From Desulfofustis sp. (GTDB lineage: Bacteria > Desulfobacterota > Desulfobulbia > Desulfobulbales > Desulfocapsaceae), in contig JABDQA010000175.1 in the NCBI GenBank assembly GCA_013042475.1, positions 1-32,793 on the forward strand: a stretch of DNA of 32,793 nt. Direction: 5' to 3'. The notes beneath the pieces were generated by a model. The model saw only the letters and a list, made by a program, of their open reading frames with translations, did no database searches and was not told the origin of the DNA. Position numbers and translations under genes: made by a program. Positions 20,636-27,032 of this stretch are shown piece by piece. Position 1 is the stretch's first letter; every line of letters starts with the position of its first letter.

Positions 20636-21028
20636 TTATTTTTCCTCCACCGGGAACTGGCTGCGCTGCCATTCGCGCCACCCGCCTTTAAGGGCATATG
20701 CCTTTGCAAAACCGTCTCCTCGCAGTTTTCGTGCCATACTGGCACTCGTCGCTTCGTTCGGTCAGGCGCAGTATGTCACCAGAGTTTTATCCTTGGGCAG
20801 AGATGCAGACCAGTCTTTGTATTCTCCAACCGGCGCCCGCATCGCATTTTTTATTTTGAACTCACTTGAACTCCAATCTTTACCGGTACGCACATCAAGA
20901 ACGACCAGATCAGGCTCCGAGAGCATGGAGCTGAGTGCATCCTTGTCCATGATCAAGTCCTCTGACCAGGCCGCAGATGCCATTCCTAGAGTGAACAACA
21001 GGGTCACCAACAACACAAGATGTCTCAT
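20636..21028 (-). CDS. Secreted selenocysteine-containing rhodanese (UGA recoded)
   Basis: Read straight through, the frame gives 130 residues with one in-frame TGA at codon 89 (20762-20764). A signal peptide covers about 1-20 (LVLLVTLLFTLGMASAA). The rhodanese fold follows: DLVVLDVRTGKDWSSSEFKI, KNAMRAPVGEY and KTLVTYCA, then the TGA, then PNEATSASMARKLRGDGFAK, AYALKGGWREW and the stop at 20636. Cys-containing relatives carry YC-x-C-P-x-EATSA here, so the TGA replaces the catalytic cysteine and forms a C87-A88-U89 pair. The residues after the TGA are conserved family sequence, which would be unexpected if the TGA were a true stop. AAGGAG lies eight bases before the ATG. It is the second gene after the APC-like permease, 15 bases away. 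Likely role: periplasmic sulfur or selenium transfer, or thiol redox chemistry. Confidence 0.88.
20731..20745 (-). promoter_or_regulatory. Bacterial SECIS hairpin for the rhodanese UGA
   Basis: On the minus strand, GTGCC-AGTAT-GGCAC forms a perfect five-pair stem with a five-base loop. The stem starts 16 bases and the loop 21 bases after the TGA. The published bacterial SECIS rules ask for a loop 16-37 bases after the UGA with a G among its first two bases. Both are met (G is the second loop base). It lies inside the coding sequence, as in other bacteria, and would recruit SelB. Confidence 0.8.
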
Positions 21029-21043: not shown

Positions 21044-22297
21044 CTAGTTTATCTTTTTTAATTTTGGAAAAAGTTTAACCATAGCAGGCCAAACCATCAC
21101 CAGCAGTAAGCCACCCGCATATACCAGGAGGCTAAAAACAATCAGATCCCTGCGGTACTCGGCAGTGAACCATATTATAATGCTTGTGATCCCCATTGTA
21201 CAACCGGCAGCTAGGCCAAGAATCGAAAAATGTTTGCTAACCGTAGGCTGGCAGGCCATTGCCAAGCAGCGAACAGCGAGCAACAGCAGCCATAGCAGCA
21301 GGGCGCCACGATAGTAGACGGTGAGTTTAGGGTCACCGGCAAGCCCAGTCATCATCAATATTCCGATGGTCACCGCCATCAGGATGCCGGCCAGGCGTTG
21401 CAGCGTGTCTCCCCCGAATGACGGTAAAAGCTCATGAACAGCAAGATTACGCACAGTTTGCCCCATGTAAATAAACAGTCCGTTGACCGTCGCGGTCGCC
21501 CCGCAAATCACCACAATTCCCATGAGCAGCCTGCCGTTTTGTCCCATCACAGCTCTGGCAGCCGTGAGATGGGGTAGAGTCGATTCGGTGAGTGAGGTTG
21601 TCGGAACGTACGTTCTCGATACCGCACCCCATAACACGAATAGCATAAATATCGTGCTGATTGCCACGATTGCAGGAATAAGTTTATTTTTCTGCTCAGA
21701 ATTAATGATCAGGTCAAATCCCAGGAAGAGCAGCAACGCGCCTGCGGCGGCGGCCAGACTGACATGTTCACCACCCTGGGGCGTGATATCCGTTGCAGGA
21801 GCAGATAACAGCCCGCTGATCAGCAGGATCGAAAAACTCAACAATGTAAAAACCACTAGCAGCATTTGCAGAGTAGTGGCCCATGATACTCGCAGTAAAT
21901 TGCAGATGAGAATCAGACCCAGCAGCAGAAAGGCAAACCCGAAGTTGGGAAACCAGTAAAGGAATATCTCATTGAAGGCATAGCCTGCAATCACAAGGAC
22001 GCTGGTGGCCGCAAGCAGGGTCATCGCCAGGCGGGCTGAGAGCACAAGAGAAGCCCCTGGAAATCTGCCAATGCCCCTGGTCAGCAGAGATAATTCGTTC
22101 TCCTCCCCTGCCACACTCCCGGGGTAAAAGATGGAACACGCGCATATAAAGCAGACCACTGCAGCAGCAGCGACGGACATATAGAAAATAATCCCGTTGT
22201 ATCCGGCACTATTACCGAGCAGGATCAGCGTTTCAGGCGAAAGCATTACACCTATCGGAATACTTGCGGAGATGAGAAAAACCCTCATAATCACCAT
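21044..22297 (-). CDS. APC-superfamily-like permease, operon partner of the selenoprotein
   Basis: A 417-residue integral membrane protein with about twelve hydrophobic segments. The opening (FLISASIPIGVMLSPETLIL) and the central region LLLFLGFDLIINSEQK, RAVMGQNGRLLMGIVVICG and ATATVNGLFIYMGQTVRNLA resemble amino-acid/polyamine/organocation permeases, but sequence signatures are weak and the substrate is unknown. ATG 22297 has no good ribosome site, and ATG 22288 is an alternative. It is the first gene of a two-gene operon with the selenocysteine rhodanese, whose ribosome site lies in the 15-base gap. The pairing suggests uptake of a sulfur or selenium compound handled by the rhodanese, but this is inference from position only. 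Confidence 0.75.
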   Translation of the reverse strand: MVIMRVFLISASIPIGVMLSPETLILLGNSAGYNGIIFYMSVAAAAVVCFICACSIFYPGSVAGEENELSLLTRGIGRFPGASLVLSARLAMTLLAATSVLVIAGYAFNEIFLYWFPNFGFAFLLLGLILICNLLRVSWATTLQMLLVVFTLLSFSILLISGLLSAPATDITPQGGEHVSLAAAAGALLLFLGFDLIINSEQKNKLIPAIVAISTIFMLFVLWGAVSRTYVPTTSLTESTLPHLTAARAVMGQNGRLLMGIVVICGATATVNGLFIYMGQTVRNLAVHELLPSFGGDTLQRLAGILMAVTIGILMMTGLAGDPKLTVYYRGALLLWLLLLAVRCLAMACQPTVSKHFSILGLAAGCTMGITSIIIWFTAEYRRDLIVFSLLVYAGGLLLVMVWPAMVKLFPKLKKIN

Positions 22298-23598: not shown

Positions 23599-24321
23599 GT
23601 GACATTTATGGATAGCGGAAAAGCAAAAAAAATCGGTATCGTCGGGGTGATCATTATCTTGATTGCCCTGTTTCAGGTCTTTGATCTCTCGCAGTTCCTG
23701 TCTCTTGAATATCTGAAATCCTCTCGGGAGACTCTGGCACGCCTCTATGCGGAAAACACTTTTCTGGTGATCGCCGCCTACTTTTTTATTTACGTCCTGG
23801 TGACCTCCCTATCATTACCAGGCGCGGCGGTGATGACCCTCGCAGGGGGCGCCGTTTTCGGGCTGGTCACCGGCACGATTATCGTTTCCTTCGCCAGTAC
23901 TATTGGCGCCACTATGGCCTGCATCGTTTCCAGGTATCTGCTGCAACACTGGGTCCAGTCCCGTTTCGGAGAAAAACTGACCACTATCAACGAAGGACTA
24001 GAGAAGGAAGGGGCTTTCTACCTGTTTACCATGCGGCTGATTCCAGCCTTTCCGTTTTTCCTGATCAACCTGGCCATGGGCTTGAGCAAACTGCCAGTAC
24101 GGACCTTCTACTGGGTATCGCAGCTGGGCATGCTTCCCGGTACCATCGTCTACGTAAACGCGGGAAAGGAATTGGGCAAAATAGACTCTCTGGGTTCCAT
24201 CCTGTCGCCCAGCCTTCTCATCTCATTCGCCCTGCTGGGGGTGCTTCCCATTACTCTGAAGAAACTGATTGCGCTCTATCGACGCAAGCGAGGGGCAGCG
24301 GAAACTCAAGTAAAGGAATGA
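23599..24321 (+). CDS. TVP38/TMEM64-family membrane protein (VTT/SNARE-associated domain)
   Basis: A 240-residue inner-membrane protein with about six hydrophobic segments. The VTT signature is LPGAAVMTLAGGAVFGLVTG, followed by SFASTIGATMACIVSRYLL, then LFTMRLIPAFPFFLINLAMG and FYWVSQLGMLPGTIVYVNAG, which are classic for the DedA/TVP38 group. Relatives are implicated in lipid scrambling or flipping and in envelope maintenance. GTG 23599 is the longest start and ATG 23608 (MDSGKAK) an equally plausible one. The gene lies 135 bases before the DEP/flavoprotein fusion. TVP38 genes are frequently neighbours or fusion partners of mercuric-reductase-like flavoproteins, as I recall from other genomes, so the pair probably cooperates. 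Confidence 0.9.
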   Translation: MTFMDSGKAKKIGIVGVIIILIALFQVFDLSQFLSLEYLKSSRETLARLYAENTFLVIAAYFFIYVLVTSLSLPGAAVMTLAGGAVFGLVTGTIIVSFASTIGATMACIVSRYLLQHWVQSRFGEKLTTINEGLEKEGAFYLFTMRLIPAFPFFLINLAMGLSKLPVRTFYWVSQLGMLPGTIVYVNAGKELGKIDSLGSILSPSLLISFALLGVLPITLKKLIALYRRKRGAAETQVKE

Positions 24322-24456
24322 GGGCAGGGATACAGAAAAGCTATGCCAATGATGAGGAGCCTCTATGATCGCTAAAGATAAATAACAGCTCGATTGATTC
24401 ATGGTCGGCCTACGGAGCTTTGAATCGAAAACAATCCTAAAGAGACGGTTAAGAAT

Positions 24457-26439
24457 ATGGCGGAACACAAAGATGAGCAGGTGGTGCTGAACGGCGATGA
24501 TCTTGAGGAGTTGGTGACATCGTTCAAGCGCAAGGTGGACATCAGCGATCGGAAATATGGGTTTCCCTCAAAACTCTACAGAAATTGCTTTGTGGGTACC
24601 GAGGCGGTGCATCTGCTTATGGATGAGGGCATGGCCACCGATGTCGAGGATGCGGTCCGGATTGGCAACATTATGCTGGAGAGCGGGGTTTTTCACCATG
24701 TTCAGCGGGCTCATGGGTTCAAGAACGAGTATCTCTTCTATCGTTTTGCTGACGATGAAGATCATGGGGAACTAGCCCAGCCTGGCGAAGAAGGTGCTCT
24801 GGTCAAGTGGGCTGATTTTCTCGGGAAGATTGCCTGCCCACCGGGGCAGGAGTGTCTGCAGCCGGAGATCCCTGGTCCCGATGCCGACCTTGCCGACATG
24901 GCCCAGGAAGATCTCGACAAGGTCGGGGTCACGCCCCTTGATAAACATAACGCCACACTTCTTGATAACGTCCACCCGAAAAAGTGGGTGGATCCCGATC
25001 CGAAAGAGACTTACAACCTGGTGGTTATCGGTGCTGGCGCCGGGGGGCTGATCACCGCCGCAGGCGCGGCCGGGGTTGGTGCCCGGGTGGCCATCATCGA
25101 GTCACATCTGCTGGGCGGCGATTGTCTGAATGTGGGCTGCGTCCCTTCCAAGGCCTTACTGCGCTGTGCCAAAACCGCTGCTTCGGTGCGAGATGCGGCC
25201 GAGTATGGCGTCCATATCGATGGCGAGGTATCAGTTGATTTCGGCCAGGTGATGGAGCGTTTGCGCAAGATCAGGGCCGAGATATCCGCAGTGGATTCGG
25301 CCAAACGCTACTCAGAACAGCTCGGGGTGGACGTGTACATCGGCAGGGCCTTGTTAACCGGCCCCAACACGGTGGAAGTGAACGGCAAAACCCTGACCTT
25401 CGCCAAGGCCGTGATAGCCACCGGGGGAACTGCGGCCATTCCTAATATTGCTGGTCTCGCCGAGGCACCCTATCTGACCAACAGCACCATCTTCAATCTC
25501 ACCGCGCTTCCGAACAGGTTCGGGGTAATCGGTGCCGGCCCGATCGGTATGGAGCTTGCCCAGGCATTTCAGCGCCTGGGGTCCCAAGTCACCGTCTTTT
25601 CCCGAAACGACCAGGTGATGCCGAAAGAGGAGCCCGAAGCGGTGGAATTGGTCAAGACGTCCATGCAGAAAGACGGGGTGCATTTTGCTTTTTTCTCCAC
25701 ATTCAAACGGGTCGAAGGGACAGAGCCGGGCGAACCGGTGCGGGTCGTGCTCGACAGGAACGGAGAAGAGGAGTGTCACGAATTTGACGGGCTGCTCATT
25801 GCCACCGGCAGGAAGCCCACGGTTGCCAACCTTGGACTTAAGGCTGCCGGGGTCGACTATGATGTCCGCACCGGGGTGATTGTCAACGAGCAGTTGCAGT
25901 CATCCAATAACAATATCTATGCAGTCGGCGATGTGGCCGGTAAATACCAGTTTACCCATATGGCCGATTTCATGGCCCGCATGGTGATAAAAAACGCTCT
26001 CTTTTTTGGCCGGGACAAGGTCTCTGACCTGTTGGTCCCCTGGGTGACTTACACCGATCCGGAGGTCGCCCACGTCGGCCTCTATGAAAAGGACCTGATC
26101 GAACGAAAAATTGACTATTCGACCTTCACGCGGGAATTCAAACACGTGGACCGCGCCATTGTCGACGGTGAGACCGAAGGGTACGTCAAAATCCACGTGG
26201 CTAAAGGTAAGGATACGATTCTCGGTGCGACCATTGTCTCCAGCCACGCCGGCGATCTGATCAGTGAAATATCGGTGGCCATGCAGAGCGGCATGGGGCT
26301 TGGAAGCCTGGCCTCGGTGATCCATCCCTATCCGACCGTGGCCGAGGCGATTCGCCAGTGCGGTGACGCCTATAACCGCGAACGGCTGACACCGACCATC
26401 AAGTCCATTTTTTATCGATTCATGGCTCTGCGGCGATAG
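24457..26439 (+). CDS. DEP-domain / pyridine nucleotide-disulfide oxidoreductase fusion
   Basis: A 660-residue flavoprotein. Residues about 18-97 look like a DEP domain: FPSKLYRNCFVGTEAVHLLM, DAVRIGNIMLESGVFHHV and EYLFYRF. A linker (100-185) holds a CPPGQEC pair and leads to the class I disulfide reductase: FAD motif NLVVIGAGAGGLITAAGAAG from 187, redox pair GGDCLNVGCVPSK (C223, C228), second dinucleotide motif GVIGAGPIGMELAQAF, AVGDVAG, and the C-terminal HPYPTVAEAI (H623). This is the mercuric reductase/dihydrolipoamide dehydrogenase group. The terminal cysteine pair of MerA is missing, so mercury reduction is not indicated. Substrate unknown. The DEP domain probably directs the enzyme to the membrane or a partner. 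The TVP38 gene lies upstream and the YHS gene 128 bases downstream, all on the plus strand. Confidence 0.9.
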   Translation: MAEHKDEQVVLNGDDLEELVTSFKRKVDISDRKYGFPSKLYRNCFVGTEAVHLLMDEGMATDVEDAVRIGNIMLESGVFHHVQRAHGFKNEYLFYRFADDEDHGELAQPGEEGALVKWADFLGKIACPPGQECLQPEIPGPDADLADMAQEDLDKVGVTPLDKHNATLLDNVHPKKWVDPDPKETYNLVVIGAGAGGLITAAGAAGVGARVAIIESHLLGGDCLNVGCVPSKALLRCAKTAASVRDAAEYGVHIDGEVSVDFGQVMERLRKIRAEISAVDSAKRYSEQLGVDVYIGRALLTGPNTVEVNGKTLTFAKAVIATGGTAAIPNIAGLAEAPYLTNSTIFNLTALPNRFGVIGAGPIGMELAQAFQRLGSQVTVFSRNDQVMPKEEPEAVELVKTSMQKDGVHFAFFSTFKRVEGTEPGEPVRVVLDRNGEEECHEFDGLLIATGRKPTVANLGLKAAGVDYDVRTGVIVNEQLQSSNNNIYAVGDVAGKYQFTHMADFMARMVIKNALFFGRDKVSDLLVPWVTYTDPEVAHVGLYEKDLIERKIDYSTFTREFKHVDRAIVDGETEGYVKIHVAKGKDTILGATIVSSHAGDLISEISVAMQSGMGLGSLASVIHPYPTVAEAIRQCGDAYNRERLTPTIKSIFYRFMALRR

Positions 26440-26567: not shown

Positions 26568-27032
26568 ATGAATAATGGGCTGAGAACCATTCCGTTTATT
26601 GCAGTTGCAGCGCTATTGCTCGGTCTCGTAAATCCCTCGCTTGGTGAAGCTAAAAACGAGATCTACACCAACTGGCGGGGACTTGCAATCAAGGGCTACG
26701 ATGCCGTGGCCTTTTTTAAGGACAGCACCCCCGTTGAGGGTTCCAAGGAATATGAGCTCACCTGGAAAGAGGTTAAGTGGCGGTTTGCCAGTGCTGAGAA
26801 TCGTGATCTCTTCGAAGCGGATCCAGAAAATTATGCTCCCCAATATGGTGGCTATTGTGCCTGGGCAGTAGCTCAGGGGTCAACCGCGAGCGTAGATCCG
26901 AAAAATGCCTGGGTGATCGTTGCGGGCAAACTCTACCTCAATTACAATAAAGAGATACAGACAAAGTGGGCAAAGGATATTCCAGGCAACATTGCCAAGG
27001 CCGACGCCAATTGGCCGGGAGTGTTGGAATAG
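26568..27032 (+). CDS. Secreted YHS-domain protein
   Basis: A 154-residue precursor with a signal peptide (about 1-27, IPFIAVAALLLGLVNPSLGEA). The YHS-type domain shows GYDAVAFFKDSTPVEGSKEY, WKEVKWRFASAENRDLFEAD and PENYAPQYGGYCAWAVAQG with its characteristic GGYC cysteine. It ends with a tryptophan-rich tail (KLYLNYNKEIQTKW). The fold is thought to bind metals or interact with metal-handling proteins in some relatives. It is periplasmic by its signal. AAAAGGAG stands nine bases before the ATG. Position downstream of the TVP38 and disulfide-reductase genes suggests it belongs to the same redox or metal-stress set, by context only. Confidence 0.9.
   Translation: MNNGLRTIPFIAVAALLLGLVNPSLGEAKNEIYTNWRGLAIKGYDAVAFFKDSTPVEGSKEYELTWKEVKWRFASAENRDLFEADPENYAPQYGGYCAWAVAQGSTASVDPKNAWVIVAGKLYLNYNKEIQTKWAKDIPGNIAKADANWPGVLE

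Follow-up and report, generated by a model that had tools for sequence, protein, structure and literature searches.

A probable LYCAU-family rhodanese selenoprotein encoded beside a predicted APC-fold transporter in Desulfofustis sp.

Does a rhodanese gene of Desulfofustis sp. end at an in-frame TGA, or is this codon read as selenocysteine (Sec), and what might the resulting protein do? The window, i.e. the whole stretch of DNA that was analyzed, is 32,793 nucleotides long. The reading frame in question is described by two features:

20636..21028, minus strand: coding sequence of the probable rhodanese_LYCAU selenoprotein (130 aa, Sec at residue 89), ending in TAA
20764-20762, minus strand: in-frame TGA, predicted Sec residue 89

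The frame starts with an ATG at 21028 (minus strand), runs through 88 sense codons up to the TGA, and continues for another 41 sense codons before it terminates at the TAA at 20638-20636 (minus strand). Its coordinates, the numbering of Sec89 and the motif around the recoded codon, TYCA-U-PNEATS, are all as the initial annotation gave them. It was by reading the raw sequence that this gene, to all appearances a real recoded one, was found; plain ORF calling truncates it to 88 aa. The warning that standard gene callers will misannotate it holds for such plain calling, but annotation with the NCBIfam model NF041203 can recognize the gene, because the family has been specifically catalogued.

The readthrough product matches the Pfam Rhodanese domain PF00581 over residues 30-122 (7e-13), and it is the 41 post-TGA codons that complete this domain. 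Compared with two same-genus homologs, these codons have a dN of about 0.05-0.07 and a dS of about 1.1, which indicates that they are under purifying selection and not open by chance. The expectation that readthrough would restore a complete rhodanese C-terminus is thus borne out. In a whole-genome search of the order, the TGA was found at the identical column in 70 listed homologs from 63 genomes, with the frame continuing behind it, so that the homologs do not end at this codon, an outcome that would have spoken for a stop. Among the named loci with a Y-C-x-x motif, 75 of 77 have the TGA, and the remaining two have one TGT and one TGC; this count leaves out three loci with TGA at both positions of the pair, which are described below.

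Downstream of the TGA, the transcript can form a short hairpin:

20731..20745, minus strand: predicted SECIS hairpin GUGCC-AGUAU-GGCAC, whose loop G is the 23rd nucleotide after UGA

The hairpin starts 17 nt past the UGA. Folding the bases after the TGA had been proposed as a check, but the window hairpin folded alone is unexceptional (z -1.17), and Rfam at gathering thresholds gave no match in the window. As folding of single sequences does not discriminate, the SECIS was judged by comparison. Across 84 distinct Sec sequences, 416 of the 420 stem cells (99%) are paired, compared to 20-49% once the 3' arm is slid as a control, and every one of the 84 has a G at the second loop position. Two-sided compensatory changes occur in five sequences, four of them with T-A replaced by C-G and one with C-G replaced by A-T. 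The Ser codon within the element is AGT in 80/84 sequences and the Ala codon is GCA in 75/83, while elsewhere in the same genes these codons account for 14% and 20%, respectively; the hairpin-forming codons thus appear frozen beyond the need of the protein. In Cys paralogs from the same order the hairpin is without conservation. The comparison identifies the post-TGA hairpin as a bacterial SECIS.

The genome also carries the machinery for Sec insertion, for which the initial annotation had suggested looking. The host has selA (603 bits, beginning ~370 nt from the end of its contig), a tRNA-Sec gene (selC; 75 bits versus a gathering threshold of 47) and selD (360 bits, with an in-frame TGA of its own). 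For selB, only the C-terminal 249 residues are present as a fragment, because contig C237 begins inside the gene. Within the window itself, ARAGORN found no tRNA. A point that speaks against Sec decoding is that, among the 63 TGA-form genomes, selA was not detected by profile search in nine, also at a relaxed threshold, and seven of these nine gave no match when searched again with a SelA protein query. Four selA-less genomes that consist of one or two contigs (G115, G119, G128 and G129) contain tRNA-Sec and full-length selB, and they carry TGA/SECIS selenoprotein genes despite having no detectable selA. An archaeal-type Sec synthase was not found in these four with the SepSecS profile.

Based on the readthrough frame, the selection on the C-terminus, the conserved SECIS and the presence of Sec machinery, the UGA is almost certainly decoded as Sec and the gene is a real selenoprotein. 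The checks from the initial annotation that were run all favor an exported, Sec-containing rhodanese. That the TGA is a true stop, so that the gene would be a pseudogene or encode a rhodanese cut short at 88 aa, agrees with standard translation, which terminates there, but is highly improbable given the purifying selection on the 41 downstream codons, the conservation of the TGA in the 70 listed homologs, the compensatory changes in the SECIS and the Sec machinery of the genome. That a Cys codon was misread in sequencing or assembly, conceivable in a fragmented assembly of 237 contigs and in a family that has Cys forms, can practically be dismissed, as the same TGA is shared by two same-genus genomes (proteins ~75% identical) and by dozens of independent genomes, some of them single-contig.

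The protein does not stand alone. It matches the NCBIfam model NF041203 (rhodanese_LYCAU) with 168.8 bits (cut-off 115) over model positions 5-126 of 126. The model is of equivalog type, with the description "rhodanese-related (seleno)protein", and it is matched by 32 of 32 aligned relatives. The C-x-U (or C-x-C) motif that marks membership is present as YCAU at residues 86-89, following a strand at 82-86. In passages of a 2026 review (PMC13188914), the family appears as "Rhodanese-like domain-containing protein form 3" with the motif CxU; passages of PMC9312934 list the same example protein as COG0607 form 2, also CxU. Due to the NF041203 match and these two listings, the rhodanese is to be regarded as a further member of the already known LYCAU selenoprotein family. 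It matches at full length above the cut-off and has the same C-x-U and the same single exported domain, so nothing that defines the family differs. Beyond the remark that rhodanese selenoproteins are known as a class, the family is specifically catalogued, both as NF041203 and in PMC13188914. The passages of PMC13188914 and PMC9312934 contain neither a transporter partner nor the U-x-U variants described below.

The selenoprotein TsoB, modeled as rhodanese/DsbD fusion-like (NF045694), also has a rhodanese domain with Sec. It differs in being a fusion, with a model of 572 positions, and in its UxxxxU motif (passage of PMC13188914). The window rhodanese reaches 22 bits against the TsoB model, whose cut-off is 805.

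As an exported protein, the rhodanese would depend on a signal peptide:

20969..21028, minus strand: putative signal peptide (MRHLVLLVTLLFTLGMASA/A...), assigned by eye; hydrophobic helix at residues 3-18 in the structure model

The N-terminus, MRHLVLLVTLLFTLGMASAA, was judged by eye to be a signal peptide, and a hydrophobic N-terminal segment is common to the whole family in the alignment. This agrees with the export claimed in the initial annotation, and we read the rhodanese as a complete, exported (periplasmic) single-domain protein. The E. coli proteins PspE and GlpE, which are likewise single-domain rhodaneses, have the fold in common with it. Each has a single catalytic Cys, and neither is known to have a second chalcogen residue two positions further. 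PspE is likewise periplasmic (PMC2593051), as is predicted for the window rhodanese.

Which of the two residues of the C-x-U pair occupies the catalytic place? The first of them is encoded as follows:

20768..20770, minus strand: codon of Cys87, which does not vary in alignment A1; three remote relatives have UGA here

The AlphaFold model of the rhodanese has a mean pLDDT of 88.9 and matches known folds with Z 17.4 (3tp9) and Z 15.7 (GlpE, 1gmx). Rhodaneses have their catalytic Cys after the central strand. In the model, the strand at 82-86 is directly followed by Cys87, then by the loop A-U-P-N-E and by a helix from residue 93. Because Cys87 lies directly after the strand, where the catalytic Cys of rhodaneses sits, it is likelier to be the catalytic residue, with Sec89 as the second member of the pair. 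This assignment is made by the strand boundary in the model, the sequence alignment being ambiguous between Cys87 and Sec89; in the alignment with 6mxv, Sec89 pairs gaplessly with the Cys of an FYCGGG segment. It is thus doubtful whether the TGA occupies the place of the catalytic cysteine, as had been stated, since the model puts Cys87 there and Sec89 two residues on. The C-x-U pair as such was described correctly and is conserved as C-x-U/C in every aligned member, Cys forms included.

Relatives with Sec or Cys at the TGA column exist; alignment with Cys-containing rhodaneses had been proposed as a check. The UGA is replaced by TGC or TGT in L052, L053, L054, L055, L072 and L141, and the Cys paralogs read YCAC. 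In L072 (175-570; Desulfatitalea), a TGT stands in place of the TGA and the SECIS hairpin is intact, apparently a recent Sec-to-Cys change. Sec-form and Cys-form rhodaneses of the family were also seen in tandem, in L055 (3679-4581) and likewise in L054 (2850-3595). Three further relatives, all above the NF041203 cut-off, have TGA for the first as well as the second residue of the pair: L125 (6001-6393, YUTU), L126 (2633-3025, YUAU) and L142 (1875-2267, YUTU). Each has a single SECIS, located after the second UGA, and they are apparent double-Sec U-x-U rhodaneses. That U-x-U occurs in these three, each with one SECIS, supports the view that the two positions work as a functional pair and suggests that both residues participate in the chemistry.

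The hint of the initial annotation that a partner gene deserves attention proved right, and it is its most informative part. Directly upstream of the rhodanese, we find:

21044..22297, minus strand: partner gene encoding a transporter of predicted APC-superfamily fold, 417 aa
21037..21042, minus strand: ribosome-binding site AAGGAG, in the 15-nt intergenic gap

The window transporter has no Pfam or NCBIfam match, and no match to the Pfam amino-acid permeases at E 0.1; 3 of 30 members of the transporter family reach Pfam AA_permease_2. Its structure model (pLDDT 92) gives Z 37.0 to AdiC (5j4n), 37 to y+LAT1 and 36 to KimA, and on this basis the protein is predicted to have an APC/LeuT-type fold. 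With AdiC, ApcT, KimA and LAT1 it shares the fold (Z 34-37 over 375-404 residues), but only about 9-14% identity, and the window protein is without a Pfam match.

Homologs of the transporter lie directly upstream of the rhodanese, and on the same strand, in 50 of 81 loci (80 named loci plus the window). When neighboring ORFs were clustered, the transporter was always upstream. Several of the remaining 31 loci have too little upstream DNA, but many have kilobases of it yet no transporter. Conversely, a search of the order with a transporter profile gave 45 matches at E 3e-32 or better. In 40 of these, a TGA rhodanese follows downstream at a distance of 2-110 nt. Two more run up to the edge of their contig, and the last three, which are weaker and remote, have no such linkage. 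As 40 of the 45 adjoin a TGA rhodanese and only remote matches are unlinked, the subfamily looks dedicated to the rhodanese, its close relatives essentially never being apart from it within the order. The rhodanese, judging from about 30 loci without an adjoining transporter, including several where kilobases of upstream DNA are available, also occurs without the transporter and can apparently work alone. The two genes form an apparent operon, and we consider it likely that their products are functionally coupled. No description of this pair was found in the titles, abstracts and passages of the literature that were searched. An uncharacterized selenoprotein family tied to one specific transporter offers a functional lead that can be tested.

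How might the rhodanese work? SelB and tRNA-Sec would recode the UGA as Sec with the help of the SECIS hairpin that starts 17 nt downstream. By analogy with other rhodaneses, Cys87 in the active-site loop would carry sulfane sulfur as a persulfide. Sec89, two residues on, would attack this persulfide as the resolving selenol, and the C-x-U pair would then cycle through a selenenylsulfide. The enzyme would serve in the periplasm as a sulfur (or selenium) transferase or reductase of the persulfide/thiosulfate type, and its target is probably the compound that the divergent APC-fold transporter uses as substrate or yields as product. The sulfur-transfer chemistry that we infer for Cys87 and Sec89 is tentative, and we would place it well below an even chance. 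We are somewhat more confident, though still a little short of even, of the broader proposal that the selenoprotein and its APC-fold neighbor without a Pfam match together make up a periplasmic module of two genes in Desulfobacterota that has not been described before, which would capture and move a sulfur or selenium compound whose processing falls to the C-x-U pair (U-x-U in some lineages).

The same selenoprotein might instead use its C-x-U pair for thiol/selenol redox chemistry, as an antioxidant or in the reduction of peroxides or disulfides, without any sulfur transfer. The rhodanese fold is also found in proteins that are not sulfurtransferases. A pair conserved throughout the aligned members, Cys forms included, and the three U-x-U members are consistent with such a role, and passages of PMC9312934 expect redox roles for most uncharacterized selenoproteins. 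Against it stands the rhodanese fold, whose Cys at the position normally used for catalysis suits sulfane-sulfur chemistry. We regard a pure redox role and sulfur transfer as about equally possible, so that each remains a tentative reading. It is rather unlikely that the selenoprotein is a non-enzymatic periplasmic sensor or accessory subunit which gates the APC-fold transporter. In favor of such a role, transporters closely related to this one hardly ever occur apart from the rhodanese, but the roughly 30 rhodanese loci without an adjoining transporter speak against it, as several have kilobases of upstream DNA.

Two further observations concern other parts of the window. At 26568-27032 (plus strand), a gene matches NF041384 (YHS_seleno_dom) with 167 bits (cut-off 70); as it has no in-frame TGA, it would be the non-Sec form of another selenoprotein family. 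The stretch 23599-26439 (plus strand) encodes a VTT/DedA-type membrane protein and, behind it, a DEP-domain pyridine nucleotide-disulfide oxidoreductase. Near the rhodanese, homologs of the former are found in 8 and homologs of the latter in 12 of the 81 loci.
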